Shown: positions 13,012 to 27,428 of the stretch, piece after piece
How the letters are laid out: every line of letters starts with the position of its first letter
How positions within the stretch are numbered: position 1 is the stretch's first letter
Assembly: GCF_006715225.1 (NCBI RefSeq)
Contig: NZ_VFMU01000001.1
Coordinates: 1,240,001-1,304,000, forward strand
DNA from: Arthrobacter sp. SLBN-112
Lineage (GTDB): Bacteria; Actinomycetota; Actinomycetes; Actinomycetales; Micrococcaceae
Reading direction: 5' to 3'
DNA length: 64,000 nt
Made by a program: the position numbers and the translations under genes
The notes under the pieces: generated by a model
What the model saw: the letters and a program-made list of their open reading frames with translations, nothing else
Databases searched by the model: none
What the model was told of the DNA's origin: nothing

Positions 13012-13893
13012 CTAACCGCGCCCGGCGCCCGGCGGATATGCCACGTATGCGAACTGTCCCGAATCCGGGAACCAGCTGTTGACGTTCAGGGTGCCCTGGC
13101 CACCGAATACCGGCCAGGTGTGCAGTGGTGTGGTCCAGTCACTGGTGGACACCAGGACGACCTCCACCGGAAGGTCTGCGGGGTGGCCCAGGGTTCCAGC
13201 GGGAAAGCGGAGATAGCTGGCCAGGCGGCCGTCGGGGGAGAGGTGCGGGAACCAGTCGACCGTTCCGCTGTCCACCAGGCGCTCGAACTGGCTGCCGTCA
13301 GGGCGGACCCGGGCAAGCTGGGCGTGGCCTGGTGCCGCGGTGAACGACTCCGTGTTCAGGTACAGCCATATTCCGTCCGGAGAATATTCAGGCCCGTCGC
13401 AGTGCCGCTGGCCCACCTCCACGCTCTCCGGTGGGCCACCCGCGGACGCGATGGTCCGCAGCCGGCCAGGGCGCGCGAAGTCACCCGCCCCAATGTCCAC
13501 GTAGGCCAGCCGGCCGCCGTCGGGACTGACGCCGTGGAGGAAATGGAAGGAACCGTCGTCGTCTGTGATCCTCGTGGCGTGCCCGCCTGCCAGCGGTGCG
13601 CGGTAGATATGGCCGTCCTCTCCTGAGAGGAAGATGCCGGTGCCGTCCGGGTCCAGGACGTGGTCATTATTGAGGTCCGGGACGCCGGTGAGCGGAACTT
13701 CGGTGAGGGAGCAGGCCGCCAGGTCGAGCCGCCACAGCCTGCCGTCTCCGTTGAGGATCAGCGCCCGGCCGTCGAGGGTCCAGTTGGGCGCCTCGAGCAG
13801 CATGTCCTCCGTGCGGAAGACGAGCGAAGATTCCCCGGTGACTGACGCCGTCCACACCTCGCAGCATTGGCCTGGTTGAAGGGTGCGGACCAC
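13012..13893 (-). CDS. TolB/WD40-like beta-propeller protein
   Basis: A 293-residue protein with repeated SPDG/DPDG turn motifs (HGVSPDGGRLAYV, YSPDGIWLYL, LSPDGRLASYL, WFPDSGQFAYV), the sign of a six- or seven-bladed propeller. There is no signal peptide, so it is cytosolic. Such proteins include oligogalacturonate-lyase-like enzymes and sugar-processing propellers. GTG at 13893 has AGGGAGAA upstream and lies 11 bp after the preceding stop. As the last gene of the sugar locus it may act on the imported sugar, but I cannot name a reaction. Confidence 0.7.
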   Translation of the reverse strand: MVRTLQPGQCCEVWTASVTGESSLVFRTEDMLLEAPNWTLDGRALILNGDGRLWRLDLAACSLTEVPLTGVPDLNNDHVLDPDGTGIFLSGEDGHIYRAPLAGGHATRITDDDGSFHFLHGVSPDGGRLAYVDIGAGDFARPGRLRTIASAGGPPESVEVGQRHCDGPEYSPDGIWLYLNTESFTAAPGHAQLARVRPDGSQFERLVDSGTVDWFPHLSPDGRLASYLRFPAGTLGHPADLPVEVVLVSTSDWTTPLHTWPVFGGQGTLNVNSWFPDSGQFAYVAYPPGAGRG

Positions 13894-13904
13894 GCCGGTT
13901 CTCC

Positions 13905-14906
13905 CTAGTCCTTGCTGCTGAAGGCGGCGTCGAAGCTGGTCTGGGAGGGTGGAAAGTCGTACTTCTTCAGGGCGGCGAGGGCTTCGGGGGCGCCGTGGAG
14001 GCGGTCCATGCCTGCGTCTTCCCATTCCACGGAGATGGGGCCGTCGTAGCCGATGGCGGCGAGGGCGCGGAAGGAGGCTTCCCAGGGGACGTCGCCGCGG
14101 CCTGCGGAGACGAAGTCCCAGCCGCGGCGGGGGTCGCCCCAGGCCAGGTGGGAGCCCAGGACGGTGTTCCGGCCGGTCTGCCGGACCTTGGTGTCCTTGC
14201 AGTCCACGTGGTAGATCCGGTCCTTGAAGTCCCAGATGAAGGAGACGGGATCAACGCCCTGCCACATCATGTGGGACGGGTCCCAGTTCAGGCCGAACGC
14301 TTCGCGGTGGCCGATCGCTTCGAGGGTGCGGACCGTGGTCCAGTAGTCGTAGGCGATCTCGGAGGGGTGGACTTCGTGGGCGAAGCGGACGCCGCATTCG
14401 TCGAAGACGTCCAGGATGGGGTTCCAGCGGTCGGCGAAGTCCTGGTAGCCGGCGTCGATCACCTTTTCGGGGACGGGCGGGAACATCGCGACATACTGCC
14501 AGATGGAGGAGCCGGTGAACCCGACCACGGTGTCCACGCCGAGCGCCTTGGCCAGCCGTGCGGTGTGTTTCATTTCCTCGGCGGCGCGTTGGCGGACACC
14601 TTCCGGGTCGCCGTCGCCCCAGACCTTGGAGCCGACGATGGCCTGGTGCCGGAAGTCGATGGGGTCATCGCACACGGCCTGGCCCTTGAGGTGGTTGGAG
14701 ATGGCCCAGACCTTGAGGTTGTACTTGTCCAGGATCTCGAGCTTGGCGTCGACGTAGCCCGGTTCATCCCAGCGCCAGGCGTCCAGGTGGTCACCGGAGA
14801 CGGCGATTTCCAGTCCGTCGTAGCCCCAGCCGGAGGCCAGACGGGCGACTTCTTCGAAGGGCAGATCGGCCCACTGGCCGGTGAACAGGGTGAACGGGCG
14901 GGGCAT
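13905..14906 (-). CDS. Sugar-phosphate isomerase/epimerase-family TIM barrel (LgdB/IolE-like)
   Basis: A 333-residue AP-endonuclease-2-type TIM barrel. Candidate metal ligands lie in AHEVHPSEIAYD, GLNWDPSHMMWQG, HVDCKD and VEWEDAG (E, D, H and E at strand ends). Relatives include inosose dehydratase, xylose-isomerase-like enzymes, and the LgdB proteins that perform elimination or hydration on 3-keto-sugars. Neighbouring Gfo/Idh/MocA dehydrogenases make a 3-keto-sugar lyase or hydratase role the best guess. AAGGAGCC precedes the ATG. It is co-directional with the dehydrogenase at 14932, 25 bp upstream. Confidence 0.8.
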   Translation of the reverse strand: MPRPFTLFTGQWADLPFEEVARLASGWGYDGLEIAVSGDHLDAWRWDEPGYVDAKLEILDKYNLKVWAISNHLKGQAVCDDPIDFRHQAIVGSKVWGDGDPEGVRQRAAEEMKHTARLAKALGVDTVVGFTGSSIWQYVAMFPPVPEKVIDAGYQDFADRWNPILDVFDECGVRFAHEVHPSEIAYDYWTTVRTLEAIGHREAFGLNWDPSHMMWQGVDPVSFIWDFKDRIYHVDCKDTKVRQTGRNTVLGSHLAWGDPRRGWDFVSAGRGDVPWEASFRALAAIGYDGPISVEWEDAGMDRLHGAPEALAALKKYDFPPSQTSFDAAFSSKD

Positions 14907-14931
14907 TCAGGGCTCCTTGAAGATAAGGGTG

Positions 14932-16122
14932 CTAGTGGCGGACGACGGTGAGGGTGCTTTTGTTGGCGGCGGACTGCTCCACCGCGTCCAGGACGTACTG
15001 GACGTTCAGTCCTTCTTCGAACGACGGCGAGGGCTGGCTTCCGTCCCGGATGGCCAGCAGGAAGTCGCGGACCTGGTGGGTGAAGGTGTGTTCCCAGCCG
15101 ATGATGTGGCCCTGCGGCCACCACGCCTCCAGGTAGGGGTGCTCTGGTTCGTTGACCAAAATCCTGCGGAAGCCCTGCTCGCGGACCGGGGCCGTAGCGT
15201 CCAGGAAGCCGAGTTCGTTAAGGTTTTCCAGGTCGAACAGGAGGCTGCCCTTGTCGCCGTAGACCTCGATCTGGAGGGAGTTCTTCCTGCCGGTGGCCAC
15301 GCGGGAGACCTCCACGGAGGCCACCGCCCCGGAGGTGAGGGACAGCGTGGCCCAGGCGGCGTCGTCGACCGTTACGTCCTCAAGCCCGCTTGCGGGACCA
15401 TTTGCACCGGGGCGGCGGTCCACGAAGGTGTTGAGTCGGCCGCTGACCTCGGTGACCTGGTCGCCCAGGAGGAAAAGCACCTGGTCGATGGCGTGGGAGG
15501 CGATGTCCCCGAGCGCCCCGGACCCGGCGGTCTCCTTCCGCAGCCGCCAGGTCATGGGGGCCTGGGCGTCCGCGAGCCAGTCCTGGAGGTAGGCGGCGCG
15601 GACGTGCCGGACGGTGCCCAGCCGGCCCTCGGCGATCAGTTCCCTGGCCAGGGCCAGGGCCGGGACGCGCCGGTAGTTGAAGCCGATCATCGACTGCACC
15701 CCGTTGGCCCGGGCCTTGGCCGCGGCGGCCGTCATCAGCTCGGCTTCCGCGAGGGTGTTGGCCAGCGGCTTTTCCACCAGGACGTGCTTGCCTGCCTCGA
15801 GCGCGGCGATGGCGATCTCGGCATGCATCCACCCCGGGGCGCAGATGTCCACGACGTCAATGTCATCGCGGGTGATCACCGTGCGCCAGTCGGTGGCTGA
15901 TTCGGCCCAGCCGTACTTTGCCGCGGCCTCTGCCACGGCACCGGCGTCCCGGCCCACGAGGACCTTTTGTTCGAAGGCCGGGACGTCGAAGAAGCTGGCC
16001 ACGTTCCGCCACGCGTTGGAGTGGGCCTTGCCCATGAAGGCGTAACCGATGGCGGCCACACCCAGCGGGCGGGAAACCCGGCGGGAGGCCGGCGGTTCGG
16101 ACGGGTGTGCGGGTGTGGTCAT
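14932..16122 (-). CDS. Gfo/Idh/MocA dehydrogenase, levoglucosan-dehydrogenase-like
   Basis: A 396-residue NAD(P)-dependent oxidoreductase. The Rossmann motif AIGYAFMGKAHS (24-35), CAPGWMH, the catalytic EKP lysine (EKP at 117-119), FNYRRVPALALA, YLQDW and AGSGALGDIASHAID are all present. From memory these segments resemble Arthrobacter/Pseudarthrobacter levoglucosan dehydrogenase (FMGKAHS, NYRR, YLQDW, GSGALGDI). That enzyme oxidises C3 of the sugar. I therefore favour a glycoside 3-dehydrogenase, although an inositol dehydrogenase role is also possible. It lies between the TIM barrel at 13905 and a second dehydrogenase at 16179. Confidence 0.85.
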   Translation of the reverse strand: MTTPAHPSEPPASRRVSRPLGVAAIGYAFMGKAHSNAWRNVASFFDVPAFEQKVLVGRDAGAVAEAAAKYGWAESATDWRTVITRDDIDVVDICAPGWMHAEIAIAALEAGKHVLVEKPLANTLAEAELMTAAAAKARANGVQSMIGFNYRRVPALALARELIAEGRLGTVRHVRAAYLQDWLADAQAPMTWRLRKETAGSGALGDIASHAIDQVLFLLGDQVTEVSGRLNTFVDRRPGANGPASGLEDVTVDDAAWATLSLTSGAVASVEVSRVATGRKNSLQIEVYGDKGSLLFDLENLNELGFLDATAPVREQGFRRILVNEPEHPYLEAWWPQGHIIGWEHTFTHQVRDFLLAIRDGSQPSPSFEEGLNVQYVLDAVEQSAANKSTLTVVRH

Positions 16123-16178
16123 GATGCGTTCCTGCGTGCTTCCTGCTGGCTGGACTACGTGCTGGATTACTTGCTGGA

Positions 16179-17297
16179 TCAGAGGGTGGCGGTCTCCGGC
16201 GCCCAGTCCTCGGGGAGGGCGGGCGACGCCGGGGCAGAGCTTTCCACATCCACGAACGTGCCGGACTCGACGGACTCGGAGATGGAGACCATGGTGTCCA
16301 GGACGTGGTAGGCCAGCTCACCCGTAGCGCGGTGCAGGACGCCGGCACGGATGGAGCGCGCCATGTCCAGCACGCCCATGCCGCGGCCGTTGGCGGGCCC
16401 GGTGGCCGGAACGGTGGTCCAGTCCTCGTCACCGGCGCGCCAGAGCTTGATGTCGCCGGTGAAGTAGTTGGGATCCGGCAGCGAGATGGTGGCTTCGGTG
16501 CCGGTGATTTCCACGAATCCCATGCGGGTGCGGGGGGACTCGAAGGAGAAAACGCTGTGCGAGGAGGCGCCAGACTCGAACTGCGCCATCGCGGAGACGT
16601 GGGTGGGCACCTCGACGGTGAATTCCTCGCCCGCCTTGGGGCCCGAGCCGATGACCCGCACGTCCTTGGCCTTGGACCCGACGGCGGCCACCTTGCGGAT
16701 GGAGCCGAAGGCCTGGACCAGGGTGGTGAGGTAGTACGGCCCCATGTCGAACAGCGGGCCCGCGCCGTGCTGGAAGAGGAAAGCGGGGTTCGGGTGCCAG
16801 GATTCCGGGCCGGGGGTCTGGAACGTCGTCATGGCTGTCAGCGGGGTGCCGATGTCGCCGCGCTGGATCAACCGCAGGGCGGTTTGGATCCCGGCGCCCA
16901 GGAAGGTGTCCGGGGCGCAGCCCAGGCGGATTCCGGCGGCGTCTGCGGTCTTGAGCAGGCCTAGCCCGGATTCCCGGTCCAGGCTGAACGGCTTTTCCGT
17001 CCAGACATGCTTGCCGGCGTTGACGGCGGCGGTGGCCACCTCCACGTGCGCGGCGGGAATGGTGAGGTTGACGATGATTTCGACGTCCGGGTGGTTCAGT
17101 GCCTTGTCCACCCCGCCCCACTCGGGGATGCCGTACTCCTTGGCGCGGGCCTCAGCCGCGTCCTCGAAAAGATCCGCGATGACGAGGACCTTAAGGTCCG
17201 GGAATGCGGTGAGGTTGTCCAGGTACTGCTTGCTGATCACGCCGGCGCCGATGACGCCGACGCCCACCGGGCCCTTGCGGGAAGCTGTGGTGCTCAT
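16179..17297 (-). CDS. Gfo/Idh/MocA-family oxidoreductase
   Basis: A 372-residue NAD(P)-dependent oxidoreductase with GVGVIGAGVIS (12-22), an NLTIPAAH motif and EKPF (101-104). The C-terminal domain carries DMGPYYLTTLV, the GxYxL variant of the catalytic region seen in one branch of the family. In a levoglucosan-type pathway this could be the LgdC-like reductase that returns 3-keto-glucose to glucose; that is inference from context. Its ATG overlaps the preceding TIM-barrel stop by four bases (ATGA), so the two are translationally coupled. Confidence 0.82.
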   Translation of the reverse strand: MSTTASRKGPVGVGVIGAGVISKQYLDNLTAFPDLKVLVIADLFEDAAEARAKEYGIPEWGGVDKALNHPDVEIIVNLTIPAAHVEVATAAVNAGKHVWTEKPFSLDRESGLGLLKTADAAGIRLGCAPDTFLGAGIQTALRLIQRGDIGTPLTAMTTFQTPGPESWHPNPAFLFQHGAGPLFDMGPYYLTTLVQAFGSIRKVAAVGSKAKDVRVIGSGPKAGEEFTVEVPTHVSAMAQFESGASSHSVFSFESPRTRMGFVEITGTEATISLPDPNYFTGDIKLWRAGDEDWTTVPATGPANGRGMGVLDMARSIRAGVLHRATGELAYHVLDTMVSISESVESGTFVDVESSAPASPALPEDWAPETATL

Positions 17298-18040
17298 GCT
17301 TTTACTCCTTCGCCTGCAGCGTTGAGGAAGGAAAGGCTCTCGTTGATGCCTTCGAAGATGTCGCCGGCGTAGTCGTCGAACTCCACCACGCCCACCTCCA
17401 GCGACTTGGCCGCGGCGATGACGTCCATGACCGGCACCTTGCCCTGGCCTGCGGGCTGCTGGGCCTTGTTGTCCTTGTTCAGGGGGCCGTCCTTGATGTG
17501 GATGAACCTCACGCGGTCGCCAAGCTTGGTGAGGATGTCCACCGGGTCCTGGCCTCCGACGGCCACCCAGTACGTGTCCACTTCCAGGACAAGTTCCGGG
17601 TCCAGCAGGGACTCGAAGTACTCCAGGGCCGTGCGGCCCTCGACGATGGACTCCAATTCCCAGGCGTGGTTGTGGTAGCCAACGCGGATGCCGTATTCGG
17701 CGCCCTTCTTGGCAGCAGCGTTGAGCTTTGCAGCCGTTGCCTGGATGTCTTCGGCCTTCTGCCAGTGCTCGGCGGGCAGGAACGGATCGATGACGGTGGT
17801 GATGCCCAGTTCCTTGGCCGCTGCGAAGATCTCGTCCTGGTCCTGGCTCATGAGGGGTGCGTGGCCGGATGGTGCGGTAAGCCCGTTCTCCTTCAGGGCC
17901 GCGCCGAGTTCCTTGGCCGTGGCAACGAAGTTGTACGGCTCGACCTGCGTGAAGCCGATCTCCGCCACCTTCCTGATGGTCCCCGGAAGATCCTCCGAGA
18001 TTGCGTTGCGGAGGGTGTAAAGCTGCAGTGAGTAGGACAT
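17294..18040 (-). CDS. Sugar-phosphate isomerase/epimerase-family TIM barrel
   Basis: A compact 248-residue AP-endonuclease-2-type TIM barrel. It starts SLQLYTLRNAISEDL, with metal-ligand candidates in GYHNHAWELE, LEVDTYWVAVGG, HIKDGP and VEFDDYAG. The length matches the short branch of the family (inosose dehydratase-like, hydroxypyruvate isomerase-like, LgdB-like). It is paired by a four-base overlap with the oxidoreductase at 16179, so they probably act in sequence. GGAAACCC precedes the ATG. Confidence 0.8.
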   Translation of the reverse strand: MSYSLQLYTLRNAISEDLPGTIRKVAEIGFTQVEPYNFVATAKELGAALKENGLTAPSGHAPLMSQDQDEIFAAAKELGITTVIDPFLPAEHWQKAEDIQATAAKLNAAAKKGAEYGIRVGYHNHAWELESIVEGRTALEYFESLLDPELVLEVDTYWVAVGGQDPVDILTKLGDRVRFIHIKDGPLNKDNKAQQPAGQGKVPVMDVIAAAKSLEVGVVEFDDYAGDIFEGINESLSFLNAAGEGVKA

Positions 18041-18076
18041 GGGTTTCCTTAGGTGTTCTGTAGGTGTGGGCTGGGG

Positions 18077-18967
18077 TCAGCGGCCGGCGAGCGAGCCGCC
18101 GATGCCGCCGACGCTGAAGTACTTGTTCAGGGTGGCGAAGACGATGACGGGCGGGAGCATCATGACCACGGCCAGGGCCATGACGGAGGTCCAGTCCGTT
18201 GCATTCTGCTGGAAGAAGGACTGCACGCCCATGGGCAGGGTGAAGATTTCATTCGAGCGCAGGAACACGATGGCCACCAGGTAGTCGTTCCAGGCGAGGA
18301 GGAAGGCGAAGATCGCTGTCGAAAGGACACCGGGAAGGGAGTTCCGGAGCACCACCTTGGTGAAGGAACCGAAAACCGAGCAGCCATCGATCCAGGAAGC
18401 CTCCTCCAGGCTGATGGGGATGGAGTCAAAGTAGGCGGCCATCATCCAGGTGGCAACCGTCATGGTGGAGCCGACGTAGATGATGGTCAGGCCCAGGAGG
18501 TTGTCCACCAGGCCCATGCCGGCGAACAGGATGAACAAGGGCACCACCGAGGTGATGATGGGCAGGGACTGCATGACGAACAGCAGCAGCGAATATCCGG
18601 AAACTGCCTTGCTGCGGCCCCGGGAGAGGACGTACCCCGCTGGTGCGGCGACGGCCACCGAGACCACCACGGTGGAGAGGGTGGTGATCAGGCTGTTCTT
18701 AAGCCACGTGGCGGCGAGCGTTTTGGAGAACACGTTGCCGAGGTTTTCGAAGGTCAGGCCCGTGGCGGTGCTGTTGGGCCCGGGAGTGAACGCCAGCAGC
18801 ACTGTGACCATGATGGGCACCAGCACGATCCCGGTGATGATGAGGATCGCGGCGAAGCGCCACCAGCGGCCGCGCTGGCCGGCCTCGGAGAGGACCTTGC
18901 GGCGTTTGCCGGCGTCGACGCCGAGTGCGGGGCCGGATTCGGGATGGGCGTGGAGTACTGCACTCAT
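18077..18967 (-). CDS. Sugar ABC transporter permease (MalG type)
   Basis: A 296-residue inner-membrane permease with six predicted helices. The EAA loop, which contacts the ATPase, is visible as LEEASWIDGCSVFGSFTKVVL (E-A-S-x-D-G). This is the CUT1 subfamily, normally used for oligosaccharides and glycosides. Its ATG overlaps the stop of the partner permease by one base. No ATPase gene lies in the locus, so a shared MsiK/UgpC-type ATPase encoded elsewhere must energise it, as is common in actinobacteria. Confidence 0.9.
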   Translation of the reverse strand: MSAVLHAHPESGPALGVDAGKRRKVLSEAGQRGRWWRFAAILIITGIVLVPIMVTVLLAFTPGPNSTATGLTFENLGNVFSKTLAATWLKNSLITTLSTVVVSVAVAAPAGYVLSRGRSKAVSGYSLLLFVMQSLPIITSVVPLFILFAGMGLVDNLLGLTIIYVGSTMTVATWMMAAYFDSIPISLEEASWIDGCSVFGSFTKVVLRNSLPGVLSTAIFAFLLAWNDYLVAIVFLRSNEIFTLPMGVQSFFQQNATDWTSVMALAVVMMLPPVIVFATLNKYFSVGGIGGSLAGR

Positions 18968-19929
18968 TATTCGACGCTCGACTTTCGGATCTGGCGGTAC
19001 AGGATGACCGAGATGACCACCAAGGTCATGGTCATGAGGAAGGCGATGGCCACGCCGGGGCCGGTGGCGAAGTCCTGGAACACGGTGCGGTAGGCCAGGA
19101 CCACCAGGGAGGTGGTGGCGTTGACCGGGCCGCCGCCGGTGAGCAGGTAGATGGTGGGGAAGTCGTTGACGCAGAAGATGGTCATCAGGATCCAGCTGAT
19201 GTAGGTGGAGCGGGCAATCAGCGGCAGGGTGATCTGGGTGAACTGCTGCCAGCGGCTGGCCCCGTCCATGCTGGCTGCCTCATAGACGGTGGTGTCAACG
19301 GATGCCAGGGCGGCCGAGATCATCATCATCATGAAGGGGAAGCTGACCCAGACCTTGAACACCATCACCGTGATGGAAGCCAGCGAGGGGTCTGCCAGGA
19401 AGAGCGGGGTGCCCATGCCCAGGTTCCGGAACAGCGACGGGATAAGGCTGTCCGGGGTGGCCACCAGCCAGTTCCATGCGGTGGAGGACACCACGATGGG
19501 CACCACCCAGGGCAGGAGCAGCAGGACCTTGAAGGTGCCTCCTGCCGGGATCCTGGTGCGCAGGAGCAGGGCCAGGCCCAGGCCCACGAGCCAGGACCCG
19601 AAGACGCCCACGATGGTGAACCACAGGGTGAACTGGGCGGCTTTCCAGAATGCCGGCGAGGTCAGGACGGTGGCAAAGTTCTGCCCGCCCACGAAGTTGC
19701 CGGTCTGGAGCAGGTCTCCGTCGTGCGTCGCCTGGATGGCCGCATAGATCAGCGGGTAGCCGTGGATCAGGACAAGGAGGACCACGGAGGGAAGCAGGAG
19801 CCAAAAGAAGGTCCTGGTTGCCTGGGCGGACAGCTTGCTCCGGCGTTTGCCGGGGACCGTCCCGGACCCGCCGGGGGCAATCCCGCGGCGGGCCCGGGCC
19901 AGGCCGGACTGGGTGGTGGTGCTGGACAT
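18967..19929 (-). CDS. Sugar ABC transporter permease (MalF type)
   Basis: A 320-residue CUT1 permease. The charged N-terminus is followed by a first helix (FFWLLLPSVVLLVLIHGYP) and five further helices. The EAA loop is present as YEAASMDGASRWQQFTQITL. It forms the membrane channel with the MalG-type protein encoded immediately downstream, with a one-base overlap, and lies 12 bp after the binding-protein gene. Confidence 0.9.
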   Translation of the reverse strand: MSSTTTQSGLARARRGIAPGGSGTVPGKRRSKLSAQATRTFFWLLLPSVVLLVLIHGYPLIYAAIQATHDGDLLQTGNFVGGQNFATVLTSPAFWKAAQFTLWFTIVGVFGSWLVGLGLALLLRTRIPAGGTFKVLLLLPWVVPIVVSSTAWNWLVATPDSLIPSLFRNLGMGTPLFLADPSLASITVMVFKVWVSFPFMMMMISAALASVDTTVYEAASMDGASRWQQFTQITLPLIARSTYISWILMTIFCVNDFPTIYLLTGGGPVNATTSLVVLAYRTVFQDFATGPGVAIAFLMTMTLVVISVILYRQIRKSSVE

Positions 19930-19941
19930 GGGCGGCCCGTC

Positions 19942-21270
19942 CTACTTCTTCAGGACGGATTCGAGGCCGGACTGGAAGGTCTGCAGGGCAGTCTTGGCGT
20001 CGGCCTTTCCGGTGATGATGGTCTGGCTGAACTGGTTCAGTGCCTGCCCGCCGTCCAGTGCGGCGAGGTTGGCGTTGAGTTTGCTGCCCTGGGCCGCGAA
20101 GGTCTTGGCGATGGGCTGCCAGTCCTTGACGATCTTGACGTTGTTGGGGTCGTTGGCGAACTCGGGAATCTCAGTGATGGACTTGAAGACCGGCAAGGCG
20201 GACATCAGCTTCTTCTGCCACAGCTGCTTGAGCTGGCCCAGATAGTACACCAGGAACTCTTCCGACGCCTCCTGGGACGGGGTGTTGGTGTACATCATGA
20301 TGTTGTTGGGGAAGACGATCGTTGCCTTGTCCCCGTGCGGACCCTTGATGGGGTCAGCCACCAGCAGGTCGCCCGAGGTATCGCCCACGCGCTGCGGGAC
20401 GTTCACCTGGAACAGGCCGTAGCCTGCCTTGCCGTCCTTCCACTGCGCGGACATGTTGTCCGTGGTGTAGCTGACCGCGGCGGGATCCACGATGCCGTTG
20501 GACACGAGTTCCAGGACGAACTCCATGGCCTCGACGTTACGGTCGTTCATCAGGTCCAGCTCGCCATCCTTGTTCCAGACACCGCCGCCGTTGTTGACCA
20601 TCATCATGATCATGGAGTGGTTGGCGTAGTTGTTGCCCGCGCCTGCGCCGGTGGTGAAGCCGAACGCGCCCACCTTCTTCAGGGCCTTGCCCGCTTCCAG
20701 CAGCGACGGCCAGTCCGTGGGGAGCGCAACGTTGGCCTTTTCGAACAGCGACTTGCGGTACCAGAAAACGCGCATGTCCAGCTGCCACGGGACCGCCACA
20801 TAGCCCTTGTCCGACTTGAACGGGTCCAGCACGCCGGGCAGGAAGTCGTCGAACTGGCCGCTGGCCTTCAGCTTCTCGATCACCTTGTCCGCGTATGCGA
20901 TCTGGCCCTGCTGTTCGAACTGGAAGGCCTGGAATCCGCCGCCCGTGGACACGGCCGGGCCCGTCTTTGAAGCGATCGCGGAGGAGAAGGTCTGGTAGAA
21001 GTTGTTCCACTGGATGATCTGGTAGCTCGCCTTGGCGCCGTTGGCACCGGAGAAACCCTCCGCGATGCCCTTGGCGGCGTCGTTGTAGGCGGGCGTGGCC
21101 CAGGGCATATCCCAGAACTTGACGGTGCCGCCGGCACCACCGCCGCCGCCTTGGCTGGCGGAGCCGCCACCGCAGGCTGCCAGCAGCGGCACGGAAGCAG
21201 CCGCCGCCGTCAGGCCCAGGAAACCGCGCCGGGAGAAGGAGCGGCGCTGTTCGGATGTTGCGTTCATCAT
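19942..21270 (-). CDS. Extracellular sugar-binding lipoprotein
   Basis: A 442-residue CUT1 family solute-binding protein. The N-terminus has a twin-arginine motif (SRRGFLGL, about 13-20) followed by a lipobox (LLAAC, lipid-carrying C33), so it is probably exported folded by Tat and lipid-anchored. A short G/S-rich linker precedes the binding domain. Tryptophan and aromatic residues in the mature part fit a sugar site. It captures the substrate for the two permeases that follow. AAAGGACAC precedes ATG-ATG. A 110-bp gap separates it from the upstream genes, so it may have its own promoter. Confidence 0.9.
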   Translation of the reverse strand: MMNATSEQRRSFSRRGFLGLTAAAASVPLLAACGGGSASQGGGGGAGGTVKFWDMPWATPAYNDAAKGIAEGFSGANGAKASYQIIQWNNFYQTFSSAIASKTGPAVSTGGGFQAFQFEQQGQIAYADKVIEKLKASGQFDDFLPGVLDPFKSDKGYVAVPWQLDMRVFWYRKSLFEKANVALPTDWPSLLEAGKALKKVGAFGFTTGAGAGNNYANHSMIMMMVNNGGGVWNKDGELDLMNDRNVEAMEFVLELVSNGIVDPAAVSYTTDNMSAQWKDGKAGYGLFQVNVPQRVGDTSGDLLVADPIKGPHGDKATIVFPNNIMMYTNTPSQEASEEFLVYYLGQLKQLWQKKLMSALPVFKSITEIPEFANDPNNVKIVKDWQPIAKTFAAQGSKLNANLAALDGGQALNQFSQTIITGKADAKTALQTFQSGLESVLKK

Positions 21271-21380
21271 GTGTCCTTTCGGGACCGGCAGGCGTGATGC
21301 GCCGTTGATGCGGTCCTGCTCATCGTTGAGAGTGGAGGTGGGACTGGACTGCTGTTCAGGTTGCGTATCGGTGGGTCTGG

Positions 21381-22211
21381 TTACGTGTCAGCGAGGGTTG
21401 CGTAGAGGTCGGTCAGCCGGGCGAACCCGGCCAGATCGTCCGGCCGGGTGCCGGCGCCAAGATGGTCCTTCAGGCGCCGCCACGCCGACCGGTGGGCGGA
21501 TTCGTAAAGCGTGGGAAGCAGGAGTTCGCCGTGGGCTCCGGTGACCCGGACTTCGGCCGGCCAAGCCGCGTTCGGATCCGGAAGCTGGACGGCCACCCCG
21601 CCGTCGGCAGTGTAAAGGCGGATATCGACGCCGGCCGGGCAGGCCGTGGTCAGCACGCCCTGGGCGGTGAACGGTGCGCCGTTGGCCAACCTGCCAGCCA
21701 CGGCGTACCCCATGGCGTCGCTGCGGAGGAGGCTGACGCCGTCGAGCGTTCCGGTGACGGCCAGCAGCGCGGCCAGGTGCTCGCCAAGGAGCCGCCGCGG
21801 GTCCGTGCCGGGAGCCGTCGCGGCAACACTGTCCAGCAGTGACGCGGTGCCCAGGGCGCTGCGCACTGCGTCACGGGCGTCGGGGCCGTCGCCTTCTGCC
21901 ACCAGCGCGGGGTTGGAGGCCCAGCGGAGGTCCAGGACGACGGCGGTTCCTGCGGCGTCTGCCGCGGCGGCCAGTTCGCGGGTGTCCTCGGGGACCGGGT
22001 TGGCCACCACGATGCCGCGGGCACCTGCGGCGACGGCGCGGCGGGCTTCGTCCGTCCAGCCGGGTTCGCCCGCAACCACCAGCACGTCCGCCGTGCTGTG
22101 CAGGTTCTTCGCGGCGGGTGCGAAGGTTGCCGGCAGTGAAGCCACCGTCTGGGTTACCGACCCGGCTTCCCGGGCGGTGGGGGATGCCGAGACCGTGTAC
22201 TGGCCGCTCAT
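21381..22211 (-). CDS. Degenerate Gfo/Idh/MocA-like protein lacking the cofactor motif
   Basis: A 276-residue protein I cannot place in a named family. Residues 40-110 follow the second half of a Gfo/Idh/MocA Rossmann domain (ADVLVVAGEPGW, an AGARGIVVANPV turn where the family has AGKHVxxEKP, then AGTAVVLDLRWASNP). However, the N-terminal GxGxxG segment is missing and the EKP lysine is replaced. A C-terminal beta-rich part resembles the family's substrate domain. It should therefore bind neither NAD nor act as a dehydrogenase by itself. Its ATG overlaps the stop of the dehydrogenase at 22208 by four bases, suggesting a partner subunit. Confidence 0.6.
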   Translation of the reverse strand: MSGQYTVSASPTAREAGSVTQTVASLPATFAPAAKNLHSTADVLVVAGEPGWTDEARRAVAAGARGIVVANPVPEDTRELAAAADAAGTAVVLDLRWASNPALVAEGDGPDARDAVRSALGTASLLDSVAATAPGTDPRRLLGEHLAALLAVTGTLDGVSLLRSDAMGYAVAGRLANGAPFTAQGVLTTACPAGVDIRLYTADGGVAVQLPDPNAAWPAEVRVTGAHGELLLPTLYESAHRSAWRRLKDHLGAGTRPDDLAGFARLTDLYATLADT

Positions 22212-23302
22212 GCCGAAACTCCTGCTTTTTCTGCCGCGCCGGACTGTCCTGGGGCACTATGCACGGTTGCGTCCGCGATGGCGAGGGCAAAGGTGAGGTC
22301 GTCGATCAGTGCCTGGGCGGAGGGCGCCTGGCGGGTTCCCCTGGCCAGCTCCGCCAGTTCACGCCATTCGCCCTCGTAGCCGTTATGCCCATAGGGGCCG
22401 AACGTGCGCGTTTCGCTGCCGCTGCGGCTGGTCAGGGTGGCGACGGCGGAGCCGGCCTGGACGTAGGACGGCGTGAAGTCGATGTGCAATGCCGCATCAT
22501 CGGCGATCGCCTCGAAGGTCCATTCGGGTTTCCAGGTGCTGTTCATGACGGCACGCAGTTCGATGACGCGGGTTGGGGTGCGGAGCGAGACGGCGTAGCC
22601 GAACGGGCGGACGTGGAACACCTGGAGGACCTCGATGTCCGCGAAGTCCGGGGTAAACCGGCGGACCAGGGGCAGGTCGTGGATGGCCAGGCCCATGATC
22701 CCGCCCCGAAGCGCGTTCTTGATGACGTCGATGTCCGAGTAGTCGGGCTCGCCGGCGGCGGGGCGCGTGAGAATTTCGGTGGCGAAGTCCTCGAAGCGGG
22801 CATTGGGCGGCAGGATGATGGAGGAACGGATGGTGTGGACCTGCTCCGGGAGGTCGCCCCAGTTCTGTTCGGCCGCGAGCCAGCCCGGATCAAAGGTGTG
22901 CATGGCCCCCACGACGATGGGTACGCCCGTTTCGCTGCTGACCGCCGAGATGCGCGCAGCTTCCCCGGCGTTCATTGCGAAGGGCTTTTCGCAGAGGACG
23001 GCTTTCTTTCCGGCCCTGCAGGCGGCGATGACCTGGTCGGCATGGAACTGGTGGGGGCTGCAGATTGCCACGACGTCCACGGCCGGATCGTTCATCAGCG
23101 CATCCATGCTGGTGCCGGCGGTTGCTCCGACGCGGGCCGCCACCGAGGAGGCAACGGCCGGGTCCACATCCATGATGTGCCGGACTTCCAGGATGTCCTG
23201 GAGGCGTGCCAGGGCCGGGAGGTGGATGGCTTGGGTGACGGGCCCGGCGCCGAGGATGCCGACGCCGAGGGGGCTGTCTGCGGGCGCTGTGTCATGGGAC
23301 AA
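22208..23302 (-). CDS. Gfo/Idh/MocA-family oxidoreductase
   Basis: A 364-residue oxidoreductase with GVGILGAGPVTQ (13-24), CSPHQFH, CEKPFAM (EKP at 105-107) and a GGIMGLAIHDLPL segment holding the catalytic-region histidine. The true start appears to be TTG at 23302, with AGAGGTAA eight bases upstream; the nearby ATG at 23295 is out of frame. It is the first gene of the leftward sugar locus and is divergent from the ROK regulator. A palindrome lies in the shared promoter region. Confidence 0.82.
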   Translation of the reverse strand: MSHDTAPADSPLGVGILGAGPVTQAIHLPALARLQDILEVRHIMDVDPAVASSVAARVGATAGTSMDALMNDPAVDVVAICSPHQFHADQVIAACRAGKKAVLCEKPFAMNAGEAARISAVSSETGVPIVVGAMHTFDPGWLAAEQNWGDLPEQVHTIRSSIILPPNARFEDFATEILTRPAAGEPDYSDIDVIKNALRGGIMGLAIHDLPLVRRFTPDFADIEVLQVFHVRPFGYAVSLRTPTRVIELRAVMNSTWKPEWTFEAIADDAALHIDFTPSYVQAGSAVATLTSRSGSETRTFGPYGHNGYEGEWRELAELARGTRQAPSAQALIDDLTFALAIADATVHSAPGQSGAAEKAGVSA

Positions 23303-23446
23303 GTTCAGTTACCTCTTTGTAAGCGGACTCTGGGATATGAGCGGACTCTTGTGCTGCCTGTGGACACGCTGCGGGCCGGGATCACTGCGGCTGATGTCCG
23401 CCATCGGATCCGCGAATGTGCCTTGAATCACAACGTAGAACTACTT

Positions 23447-23460
23447 TTGACGCACGTCAA
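23447..23460. promoter_or_regulatory. Candidate ROK operator palindrome
   Basis: TTGACGCACGTCAA is a perfect 6-2-6 palindrome inside a wider imperfect repeat (CTTTTGACG...CGTCAAGCAAAAG). It lies midway between the divergent sugar locus and the ROK regulator, the expected place for an operator serving both. Confidence 0.5.
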
Positions 23461-23532
23461 GCAAAAGTTGTTTGTTGCGCGTCATTCTTCTGCCGTGATG
23501 ACAGCCGTAAGTAAGAGTGTTATGACTTAGGC

Positions 23533-24750
23533 ATGACTTCAGTGACGGGCAGGCAGGCCGCAAAAGACGCCGACGTCGGCAGCCTGTCGCGCGCCGGCGA
23601 CCTCTTCCAGCTGCTGCGTGACGGCCAGGCCCGCACCCGCGCCGAGCTTGCCCTTAGTACGGGGCTGGCCCGGTCAACCGTGGCCTCGCGGATCGACGCG
23701 CTGATGCTGTCAGGCCTCGTCGGCCCCGCCGGCGAGGCGCTCTCCAGCGGCGGCAGGCCGCCGTCGCGCTTTGCCTTCAACCCGGCCGCCCGCCTGGTGC
23801 TGGCCGTGGACGTGGGCGCCACCCATATCATCGTTGCGGTCACGGACCTCGGCGGCAACATCCTGGCCGAACACCGGCTGGCTCAGCAGGTGGCCGACGG
23901 GCCGGAAGCGGTCCTGGACCAGGTGGTGGCGCAGGGCAAGGAGCTGCTGGCGTCCACCGGACGAAGCGTGGCGGAACTCGCCGGGATCGGAATCGGCCTG
24001 CCCGGACCCGTGGAACACGACACCGGCAAGCCCGTTAAGCCGCCCATCATGCCGGGCTGGGATGGGTTCGATGTGGTCAGCTACGTCCAGCGGTCGCTGC
24101 CCGTGCACGTGCTGGTGGACAACGACGTGAACATCATGGCGTTGGGGGAGCAGTCCGCCCACTGGCCCGAACACAACAACTTCTTCTTCGTGAAGGTGGC
24201 TACCGGTATCGGCTCCGGCATCATCAGCAACGGGGAACTGCAGCGCGGCGCCAACGGCACGGCAGGCGACCTGGGGCACGTCCAGGTGGCGCGCGGCGCG
24301 GATGTCCTGTGTGCCTGTGGAAACTACGGGTGCCTGGAAGCGCTGGCGTCAGGTCCCGCCGTCGTGCGTTCCCTCCGGGACCAGGGGCTGGACGTGGCGA
24401 AGGGCGCGGACGTGCTCCGGCTCGCCGCTGACGGCAACCTGCAGGCCATCCAGGCACTGCGCCAGGCCGGCCGGGACATCGGCGAGGTACTGGCCACCGT
24501 GGTCAACCTGCTCAACCCGTCCGTCATTGTGGTGGGCGGCAGCGTCGGCGAGACGGGGGAGCACCTCGTCGCCGGCATCCGCGAGGTGGTGTACCGGCGC
24601 TCGCCGCCGCTGGCCACCTCGCACCTGCGCATCAACGGCTCGCGCGCCGGCAGCCAGGCGGCAGTCCTGGGCGCCAGCAAACTCGTCACCCAGTATGTCC
24701 TCTCGCCGGCTGTCATCGAAGCAACGCTGGCAGGCGCCATCGCGGGGTAG
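23533..24750 (+). CDS. ROK-family transcriptional regulator
   Basis: A 405-residue repressor. The N-terminal winged helix (about 20-75: RTRAELALSTGLARSTVASRID) is followed by a sugar-kinase fold with VDVGATH (92-98), GLPGP (155-159), DNDVN and the zinc motif (H249, C260, C262, C267 in CACGNYGCLEA). Such proteins sense sugars or sugar phosphates and release DNA. It is divergent from the sugar locus with a palindrome between them, so it most likely represses that locus. The stop codon lies inside a strong terminator hairpin. Confidence 0.9.
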   Translation: MTSVTGRQAAKDADVGSLSRAGDLFQLLRDGQARTRAELALSTGLARSTVASRIDALMLSGLVGPAGEALSSGGRPPSRFAFNPAARLVLAVDVGATHIIVAVTDLGGNILAEHRLAQQVADGPEAVLDQVVAQGKELLASTGRSVAELAGIGIGLPGPVEHDTGKPVKPPIMPGWDGFDVVSYVQRSLPVHVLVDNDVNIMALGEQSAHWPEHNNFFFVKVATGIGSGIISNGELQRGANGTAGDLGHVQVARGADVLCACGNYGCLEALASGPAVVRSLRDQGLDVAKGADVLRLAADGNLQAIQALRQAGRDIGEVLATVVNLLNPSVIVVGGSVGETGEHLVAGIREVVYRRSPPLATSHLRINGSRAGSQAAVLGASKLVTQYVLSPAVIEATLAGAIAG

Positions 24751-24787: not shown

Positions 24788-27064
24788 TTAGGCTTCCGCC
24801 TCCGGTTCAGGTGCTTCGGTCAAGATCAGCGCAGTCCCGCCGTAGGCGGGCAGCTCCAGGAAGAAGCTGTGCAGGTCATCCACCTGCCCCACGGTCTCGC
24901 CGCTGAACAGGTCCTTGACGTTGGCACCTGAGGGGAGCTCGTTGGACTGGATGCTGCCGGCGATGTCCTGCCCGGAGAAGTTGAGCGCGGTGACCTGCAG
25001 TGTCCCGTCCGTCAGCCTGTTGACCAGCACCAGCGCGCTGCGGTTCGAAACGTCCGGGACATCGAGCAAGGTCCCGGTGGCAATGCCGTTCTCTTCACGC
25101 ACGGTGAGGATCCGCTGCAACCGCCGGGCGAAAGACTCGGGGTCCTTCAGCTGGTCCGGCAGCGGGCCATAGAGGCTGCGGGCCCGCGGCATCCCGGAAG
25201 AGGAGGTGATTGCGTCCGGGCTGGTCCCCATGAGGTCATGGGCGCCGCGGTTTATCCAGCGGGTGTCACCCTGCGAGGTCAATTCCCGGACGCTGCTCCG
25301 GTCCAGGGCCAGGATTCCCGTGAGGTCCCAGCCGGACAGGGCAAAGACGCCGGGCTGCAGGGCGTTGTACATGGCCAGGAGCAGGTGGACGTCCCGGATC
25401 TGTGCTTCCTGTTCCGCGGTGGTGGCGGACGGGTCCTTGATGCCCAGCGCAGCCATGATGAAGCTGACCGAGGTGCAGGCAATGCCGTTGGTGGTGAAGA
25501 CGGCGTTGTATGGCCCGTTCTCGCCGGTCAGCCGCTCGCGCATGGTCTGCTGGATCTGTTCGGCCAGCTGGGCGCCGGTGAGTTCCTCGCCGTTGAGCTC
25601 GAACATCTCGTCCCGGTGCCCGGCGGCGAAGTGCAGGAGCTCGTAGGTGAGTTCGTCATGGTTCTGCAGTGCATGCACCAGCGAGGCCTGGTCCACGCCG
25701 ATCTCCAGGGACAGGCGGAGGGTCAGCCGCAGGAACTCGGTATCGGCCGTGATCAGGGCGTAATGGTACGCCGGCCGGGTAATGAAGTCGTAGGACAGGT
25801 CCGGGCCTGCTTCGGAGGTTGCCTTGATGTCATCAATGGTCAGGTTCAGCTCCTGGAAGGAGAACCCGCCAACTTTGCGGATCATGGACCCGATGAGCTG
25901 GTTGGCGGCCTCGGACAGCGGGTGTCCTTCGGACCAGCCGGGCTGCTCCTCGGCGCTCTTCTCCACGCCCAGGAAGCCGTTGGCATCAAGGCGCAGCGCC
26001 CCGGTGCCCAGGTCCACCAGCGAATGCAGGGCATCGCCCACTACCAGGCGCATTCCCGCGAAGGTGGGATCCAGCCAGTTGATGGAGGGCTGGCCTGCCT
26101 TGAAGTAGTGCAGGTAGACCCAGCGGCGGGTCTTCCCGGCCGTGTCCACGATCGGCCTGGTAGCGCTCCAGTTGGTTTCCTTCACCCCGGGTTCGTAGAA
26201 GATGACCCGCTGCAGCCGGCCGATGATGTAGCCGGCCTTCTGCAGTGCCTGCTCCGAGTCGGGGCTGAGGTTGACCGAGTCGGCCCCCTCGGGGACGTCC
26301 GGAAGCAGGTGCCAGTCCTCTTCCGGAATGTCCACCATGTGGTAGATGCCGGGGTAGTCCCGGAAATTCATCTCGGCCAGGCGGAAGTCCGCGCCCTTGC
26401 CGGTATGGCCCGGGACGATGTCGTCGATGACCGTGCCGTCATGCTCAGCAGCCACCTCGCACATCCGGCGGAACTCCTCCTCCGTGCCGAAGACCGGGTC
26501 GATCGCCATGCTGATGCGGTCGAAGTGCCCGTCCACGCTGGGCGTGTGGGACCAGCCGCTGATGCCGCCGGCGAGCTTTACGGGTCCGGTGTGGATCCCG
26601 CGGATGCCGATCTCACGGAACGCTTTCCACATGGTCGGATCACCCAGGGCGGAAAGGAATGACTGGCCGGTGGGGGTGATGAAGGACAGCGGGTAGGCGG
26701 TGAACCATACGGAGGCACGGTCGACGGCGGCCCGCGGGTTGGGATGGGCGTACGAGTTTTGCCACATGCTGGCCTGGCCGGACAGCTGCCGTGCCAAAGT
26801 ATTGGCGTCGCCGAGCATGGCCTGGTTGCGGAGCCAGTCCACGTAGGCCGCGTTCCGCCCGTCGAACTCGAAGGACGGCCTGCTGCCTACGAACTGGCGC
26901 CGGCGTGCGATGGGCCGCAGCGCCTTTGGCCTGGCTGCGAAGAACTGCTCGTCGAAATTGACGTCCAGTTCCGCTGACGGCTCCGCAGCGCCCGCTTCCA
27001 CTTCCCCGTTGCCTGCGGCTGCATCCGCTTCCGAAGTGTTCCCGCTGGTGCCCGGCTCCCGCAT
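24788..27064 (-). CDS. GH13 alpha-amylase-superfamily enzyme, trehalose-synthase-like
   Basis: A 758-residue glycoside hydrolase or transferase. A disordered acidic N-terminus (1-45) precedes the barrel. Family regions are visible: region I variant DDIVPGH (214-220, with G where NH is usual), region [11 protein letters not shown] (nucleophile D360), region III FQELNL (acid/base E405) and region IV QNHDEL (D470). Catalytic residues are therefore intact. The order and length recall maltose alpha-glucosyltransferase/TreS-like proteins, but substrate loops differ, so sucrose- or maltose-acting relatives are possible. ATG at 27064 has AGAGGAGC upstream. It stands alone. Confidence 0.75.
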
Positions 27065-27428
27065 AAGCTCCTCTTTCCATTGCTCGTTTCCGTGCTGGCA
27101 TGGATGCTCAAAAGACCCCTTGCCCAAGGAAAGGTACCCAGGGCAACAGGGAGTATTCGGCGTTCCCTCTCCCGATGCTACTGCGCAGCGGGGGCGGTGG
27201 GAGGGACAAACGTGCCCGGGCTAATGGATGCTTTGCCCGATCTCCCGGCCAATCTGCTGGAGGAGGGCGGCGGAGAGCCGGGGGTCCTTGCCTACCTATG
27301 CCCGCCCCGTACCGCGAATCCCCCTGTCCCCCTTGTTTCGCCGAGTTTGCCCACTAAGGCCGCCGCCGGTCGTATTCTTAGAACAAAGGTTTTGCAGTGG
27401 GCCGAAGTGCTGATAGCAGGGCTGAAGC
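27065..27428. other. Intergenic region without a supported gene
   Basis: This 364-bp divergent region must carry the promoters of the GH13 gene and the GAF-ANTAR gene. A -10-like TATTCT lies at 27373-27378 on the plus strand, without a convincing -35. I see no strong inverted repeat and no coding frame with a ribosome-binding site. Confidence 0.4.

Follow-up and report, generated by a model that had tools for sequence, protein, structure and literature searches.

A candidate operator-controlled locus for non-hydrolytic glycoside cleavage through a 3-keto intermediate in Arthrobacter sp. SLBN-112

Introduction

What does a locus with three Gfo/Idh/MocA dehydrogenases, two AP-endonuclease-2 TIM barrels, a sugar ABC importer, a beta-propeller and a divergent ROK regulator do with its substrate, and what kind of substrate is it? 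The question is raised by positions 13,012 to 24,750 of a 64,000-nucleotide stretch (the window; positions 1,240,001 to 1,304,000 of contig NZ_VFMU01000001.1) from the 4.40-Mb single-contig genome of Arthrobacter sp. SLBN-112. A sequence-only reading had proposed catabolism of a glycoside through a 3-keto intermediate, a proposal that homology and gene linkage support. Judged from sequence, the locus is probably a substrate-induced operon for the non-hydrolytic cleavage of an imported O-glycoside via such an intermediate, the substrate being gluco- or possibly manno-configured.

The four-step chemistry has already been published: the logic of oxidation, elimination, hydration and reduction is described for the levoglucosan pathway of Bacillus smithii (PMC7676230) and for Agrobacterium tumefaciens acting on 3-keto-phlorizin (PMC10628242). 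What is new here is the operator, the importer cassette and an enzyme-like partner protein encoded at 21381. A literature search that covered few subscription journals found no publication on this locus in titles and abstract openings.

Results

The genes are listed below, starting with the divergent regulator. Counts of named loci refer to 79 loci from the best 80 matches kept in a scan of a genome collection with an alignment of one of the dehydrogenases, GfoB, the presence of each gene being scored by its own identity threshold. Because GfoB was the query, these counts describe GfoB loci only; among the named loci, those nearest to the one studied belong to Arthrobacter, Pseudarthrobacter and Paenarthrobacter.

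23533..24750, plus strand: ROK-family regulator, divergent; 56 of the 79 named loci have an orthologue at 50% identity or more
23444..23467, minus strand: putative ROK operator CTTTTGCTTGACGTGCGTCAAAAG, an exact match to the operator pattern
22208..23302, minus strand: GfoA, Gfo/Idh/MocA dehydrogenase encoded in the importer cassette (PF01408); EKP and the catalytic-column His kept
21381..22211, minus strand: protein of predicted Gfo fold that lacks the NAD loop and the EKP Lys (pseudo-oxidoreductase)
19942..21270, minus strand: solute-binding protein of the sugar ABC importer (PF01547, SBP_bac_1)
18967..19929, minus strand: sugar ABC permease 1 (PF00528, BPD_transp_1)
18077..18967, minus strand: sugar ABC permease 2 (PF00528, BPD_transp_1)
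17294..18040, minus strand: OGE, predicted OGE-like 3-keto-glycoside beta-eliminase, TIM barrel (PF01261; 8bvk, E 3.3e-20; active-site residues conserved)
16179..17297, minus strand: GfoB, Gfo/Idh/MocA oxidoreductase, eliminase partner (PF01408; Tyr in the catalytic-His column)
14932..16122, minus strand: GfoC, hydratase-linked Gfo/Idh/MocA oxidoreductase from the LgdA/4h3v clade (PF01408)
13905..14906, minus strand: HYD, 2-hydroxy-3-keto-glucal hydratase-like TIM barrel (PF01261; 2zds, 556.7 bits; 8ro4, E 3e-35)
13012..13893, minus strand: TolB-like beta-propeller, optional (2ojh, E 2.5e-45; at least 40% identity in 21 of the 79 named loci)

The two barrels

The barrel encoded at 17294 matches 8bvk, the O-glycoside beta-eliminase AtOGE of A. 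tumefaciens, with E 3.3e-20. The metal ligands reported for AtOGE are His132, Asp163 and His189, with Glu233 weakly coordinating; His134 is essential, and a second metal position is made up of His132, His66, Glu39 and Glu161 (PMC10628242). Seven of these eight named residues lie within the alignment, Glu233 falling outside it, and 17294 is identical at all seven (His132, His134, Asp163, His189, Glu39, His66 and Glu161). This conservation suggests that 17294 is an OGE-like beta-eliminase acting on a 3-keto-glycoside. In local alignments it has 27-33% identity with the LgdB1-type barrels of two levoglucosan loci (L078 and L079). The other barrel, 13905, matches 2zds along its whole length (556.7 bits) and aligns over residues 17-327 of 333 with 8ro4 (E 3e-35), which is deposited as '2-hydroxy-3-keto-glucal hydratase'. 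Both barrels are only distantly related to the genome's own IolE-like protein (20-21% identity each).

Linkage of barrels and dehydrogenases

OGE and GfoB occur together in 79 of 79 named loci, always as an adjacent pair, and the 4-base overlap between them is kept in 71 of 80 loci when the window is included. GfoC is present in 64 of the 79, HYD in 60, ROK in 56 and GfoA in 20. A second sample consisted of 148 genomes of the class, with thresholds of E at most 1e-60 for HYD, 1e-110 for GfoC and 1e-100 for GfoB and with the kinship of the genomes uncorrected. Here HYD was found in 45 genomes, GfoC in 40 and both in 39, while GfoB was found in 12. GfoB starts no more than 2 kb from an OGE match at 14 of its 15 places, and at all 15 the distance is at most 20 kb; weaker GfoB paralogues come within 2 kb of one at 1 of 21 places. 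GfoC is within 2 kb of HYD at 24 of its 48 places; at 38 the two are no more than 20 kb apart. Around the 30 best HYD loci, the 1.5-kb flanks (E at most 1e-8, paralogues counted, some flanks ending at contig ends) hold a GfoC match in 14 and an OGE match in 10; one flank, at L099, has both, its GfoC match being probably its GfoB. In 16 of the 79 named loci (L133, L135, L139 and L152 among them) the operon is followed downstream by a further Gfo/Idh/MocA gene, with L152:13327-14358 as a representative.

The importer cassette and protein 21381

The 21381 family, the binding protein and each of the permeases are found in 19 of the 79 named loci. Among the 65 near-full-length loci, GfoA, 21381 and the importer are jointly present in 18, and neither the importer nor 21381 occurs where GfoA is absent. 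One locus (L143) carries a GfoA-like gene (48%) without 21381 or importer, and L088, which is outside the 79-locus sample, retains a fragment of permease 2 alone. It follows from this joint presence and absence that core and cassette are separable. The sequence-only reading had described a levoglucosan gene set plus three extra genes; the locus is better divided into a core (17294, 16179, 14932 and 13905), a separable cassette (22208, 21381 and the importer) and an optional propeller.

Sequence searches gave no family match for 21381, and a Pfam scan found no domain in either 21381 or 13012. The predicted structure of 21381 has the two-domain Gfo/Idh/MocA fold (259 of 276 residues aligned), which bears out its earlier description as a degenerate relative. 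Columns 5-12 of its family have no majority GxG, that is, no glycine-rich NAD loop. Position 71, in the register of the EKP Lys, is Lys in 0 of 74 rows and Asn in 64, a register that rests on weak alignments, and His145 is near-invariant. The 4-base overlap of 21381 with GfoA is kept in 19 of 20 pairs. We tentatively propose that GfoA and 21381 could be partners in a glycoside 3-dehydrogenase that is an obligate hetero-oligomer. In it, 21381 would be a Gfo-fold pseudoenzyme subunit that does not bind NAD but fills out the beta-sheet interface and contributes a surface on the substrate side, including His145, fitted to the importer's substrate. A dedicated pseudoenzyme subunit of this kind would explain the strict linkage of the cassette and the conserved overlap. 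A literature search found no description of a Gfo pseudoenzyme, though one query phrase may miss the slashed family name.

The operator

A 10-base word common to 51 of 57 intergenic regions on the ROK side served as the seed of an operator pattern, CTTTTGCTTGAC-N6-CAAAAG, an inverted repeat of 24 bases. The window has an exact match at 23444-23467 and no other (0.01 expected). When up to three mismatches are allowed across the genome (4.4 Mb), there is a single further match, with three mismatches, and the reversed control pattern gives four. The operator is present with at most two mismatches in all 57 ROK loci, window included, a figure that is no independent test since the pattern was derived from the same 57 loci; the loci without ROK and the second copies are independent. 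Only one of 23 loci without a ROK orthologue has the operator, with three mismatches. In 13 loci a different, divergent importer lies beside the ROK gene, and 11 of these have a second operator copy on the opposite strand, close to where the binding-protein gene of that importer begins; the two kinds of importer therefore seem to share one regulator. In one more locus, L186, the operator likewise occurs twice, with no importer recognised. Scanned for consensus sigma-70 promoters, the intergenic region yielded none; by eye, TTGAC lies within the operator, with a TANNNT element about 17-18 bases on. Genes for LacI-type regulators were recognised by eye at L169:6755-7864 and L198:8124-9146. The latter adjoins OGE in a locus where the ROK orthologue was not found, which suggests a swap of regulators in distant loci.

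Gene arrangement

Open reading frames and Pfam matches agree with the earlier inventory of the locus. The earlier description of overlapping reading frames holds for GfoA/21381 and 17294/16179 (4 bases each) and for the two permeases (1 base), but not for 16179/14932 and 14932/13905, which are separated by 56 and 25 bases. The propeller frame as listed (to 14025) overruns into 13905; by eye, a GTG at 13893, just past the stop of 13905, is the likelier start. PF01408 occurs at 25 places in the genome, and within the window only in GfoA, GfoB and GfoC. As had been noted, none of the locus genes encodes an ATPase for the importer; MalK-type ATPases (PF17912) are encoded at two places elsewhere in the genome. 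The binding protein 19942 has a weak match to NgcE, and neither it nor the neighbouring genes single out a substrate. Beyond the ROK gene, 24788-27127 encodes a maltose alpha-glucosyltransferase-type protein (TIGR02455, 882 bits), found at no less than 60% identity in 3 of the 79 named loci.

Discussion

In the pathway that we propose, the importer would take the glycoside in, borrowing a MalK-type ATPase encoded elsewhere. GfoB (16179), assigned on linkage, would oxidise C3 with NAD+, and GfoA/21381 would be an additional dehydrogenase, adapted to what this importer brings in. The barrel 17294 would then abstract H2 and expel the aglycone or second sugar to leave 2-hydroxy-3-keto-glucal, to which 13905 would add water, giving 3-keto-glucose. 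GfoC (14932) would reduce this to glucose and regenerate NAD+, and the ROK protein would repress at the operator until the sugar appears. By chemical inference, elimination erases the configuration at C2, and manno-configured substrates would thus yield the same glucal. GH2 genes are found within 10 kb of OGE-GfoB in six loci (L194, L201, L204, L205, L207 and L209), all without detected GfoC or HYD; one representative protein was scanned (PF22666, PF00703), and from its motifs we take it to be beta-mannosidase-like. Mannosides are kept as possible substrates because of these neighbours.

On balance we favour GfoB as the dehydrogenase that feeds the eliminase and GfoC as the reductase that follows the hydratase, because linkage points this way: OGE travels with GfoB and HYD with GfoC, and in 15 of the 79 OGE-GfoB loci neither GfoC nor HYD was found. 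Family kinship favours the reverse, in which GfoC would oxidise the glycoside and GfoB would reduce 3-keto-glucose in the same pathway, an order that we regard as less likely. In the tree, GfoC groups with LgdA in a 6-row clade (support 99/98), and it is closer to this 3-dehydrogenase (42-43%) than to the reductase LgdC (32-34%). The catalytic residues of LgdA are Glu103 and His193 (PMC10066097), and 14932 has E and H in these columns. GfoB forms a separate clade and has a Tyr where LgdA and LgdC have His, so the roles may be swapped. The 3-ketoreductase KijD10 likewise has a Tyr there (Tyr186, of which a mutant is deposited). GfoA keeps EKP and the His and is less than 22% identical to all Gfo proteins tested beyond its own clade.

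The kinship of GfoC and the Tyr of GfoB weigh against the roles that we prefer, and there are further observations that the proposed pathway has to bear. Among these are the 15 loci without detected GfoC and HYD, one of which spans just 4.9 kb, and 2 of the 12 class genomes with GfoB in which HYD is missing (the other 10 have it). For 17294, the entries 8tcs and 8tcd, deposited merely as isomerase-like proteins, score slightly above 8bvk. In 13905 an Asp stands opposite a probable metal-ligand His of 8ro4 (VDCKD versus FHVKD), a column at which a HYD paralogue in the same genome retains the His; by eye, the Glu, Asp and Glu motifs of the remaining metal-ligand columns are kept, the ligands presumably following the superfamily pattern.

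Could the locus instead serve levoglucosan (1,6-anhydroglucose), with 14932 as LgdA, 17294 as LgdB1, 13905 as LgdB2 and 16179 as LgdC? The same families are present, 14932 groups with LgdA, and in the tree alignment 17294 shares 27% identity with the relatives' LgdB1-type barrel. The motifs FMGKAHS, NYRR, YLQDW and GSGALGDI, from which the sequence-only reading drew its comparison, are indeed letter-identical in an alignment of 14932 with the levoglucosan dehydrogenase 6a3f. They are not diagnostic, since YLQDW and GSGALGDI also occur in 4h3v, to which 14932 scores 484 bits versus 286 to 6a3f. Against the levoglucosan dehydrogenase model NF052479, 14932 reaches 343.1 bits where the cut-off is 650, and the window genome has no match above that cut-off. 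LgdA proteins above it (about 750 bits) were found in 8 of 29 genomes, and all eight hold an orthologue of 14932 at a separate place. In the two true levoglucosan loci that were read (L078 and L079), LgdB1- and LgdC-type genes adjoin LgdA; GfoC has 41-42% identity with the LgdA and 34% with the LgdC of these loci, and 16179 is 20-22% identical to the LgdC-type proteins. A levoglucosan operon is thus improbable, and the earlier suggestion of a related but different sugar gains support from the model score and from the separate LgdA loci.

A C-glycoside, which had also been offered as a candidate substrate, finds no support and appears very improbable. All three dehydrogenases match DgpA (7xr9) weakly, but the barrel resembles 8bvk, and AtOGE is reported as O-glycoside-specific (PMC10628242). 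The second CGE subunit CGDB (PF19906) has no match in the genome, in a search whose control was silent too (0/14). Catabolism of inositol or inosose by IolG- and IolE-like enzymes is likewise very improbable. The three Gfo proteins do hit the IolG model TIGR04380 weakly, and both barrels the IolE model, but with 120 (14932), 67 (16179) and 87 (22208) bits where the former has a cut-off of 355, and with 47 and 50 bits where the latter has one of 290. The genome's own IolG, which is above the cut-off, is encoded elsewhere, at 1411803. In the tree GfoB and GfoC stand apart from it and GfoA joins it only through long branches flagged by the program.

The proposed 3-keto-glycoside operon can be set beside two described systems. 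The operon of A. tumefaciens (GlycDH, AtOGE, AtHYD and a Gfo reductase; PMC10628242) likewise joins an OGE eliminase, a HYD hydratase and Gfo in one operon. There, GlycDH oxidises and one extra oxidoreductase reduces; in the present locus the Gfo proteins number three and are joined by a Gfo-fold pseudoenzyme, and an ABC importer and a ROK operator are present as well. The LgdA-LgdB1-LgdB2-LgdC genes of B. smithii (PMC7676230) likewise rely on two Gfo proteins plus two barrels, and an ABC importer is encoded close by. The present locus differs in that 14932 is not LgdA by the curated model, in its other dehydrogenase partners and its extra cassette, in its ROK regulator, where B. smithii has one of the LacI family, and in an importer without ATPase.

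Related gene sets are also present elsewhere in the same genome. At about 1141-1151 kb, GfoB-like, ThuA, HYD and GfoC-like genes are accompanied by an importer and by what looks by eye like a LacI-type regulator; at about 3522 kb there are a GfoC paralogue (76%), another Gfo, ThuA and an importer. The ThuA-family genes (PF06283) are L031:7663-8361 (minus strand, near 1.143 Mb) and L080:8065-8922 (minus strand, near 3.523 Mb). In both paralogous loci ThuA takes the place of the eliminase, which suggests, without proof, that it does the cleavage there; ThuA may be an alternative 3-keto-glycoside-cleaving enzyme. Rhizobial ThuA/ThuB-type loci for 3-keto disaccharides combine a Gfo 3-dehydrogenase with a sugar importer and have ThuA in the position that the OGE barrel occupies in the window locus.

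Non-hydrolytic glycoside cleavage has been described only recently, and in our judgement the question of which natural substrates soil bacteria degrade by it is still largely open. The locus is a clear actinobacterial example that comes with an importer and an operator of its own, so that its inducer could be sought with a simple reporter assay. It also suggests functions for the solved structures 2zds and 4h3v, for which a literature search found no assigned role. Within the Gfo/Idh/MocA family, the predicted structure of 21381 points to a protein that would have kept the fold without the cofactor site and yet been retained under selection.

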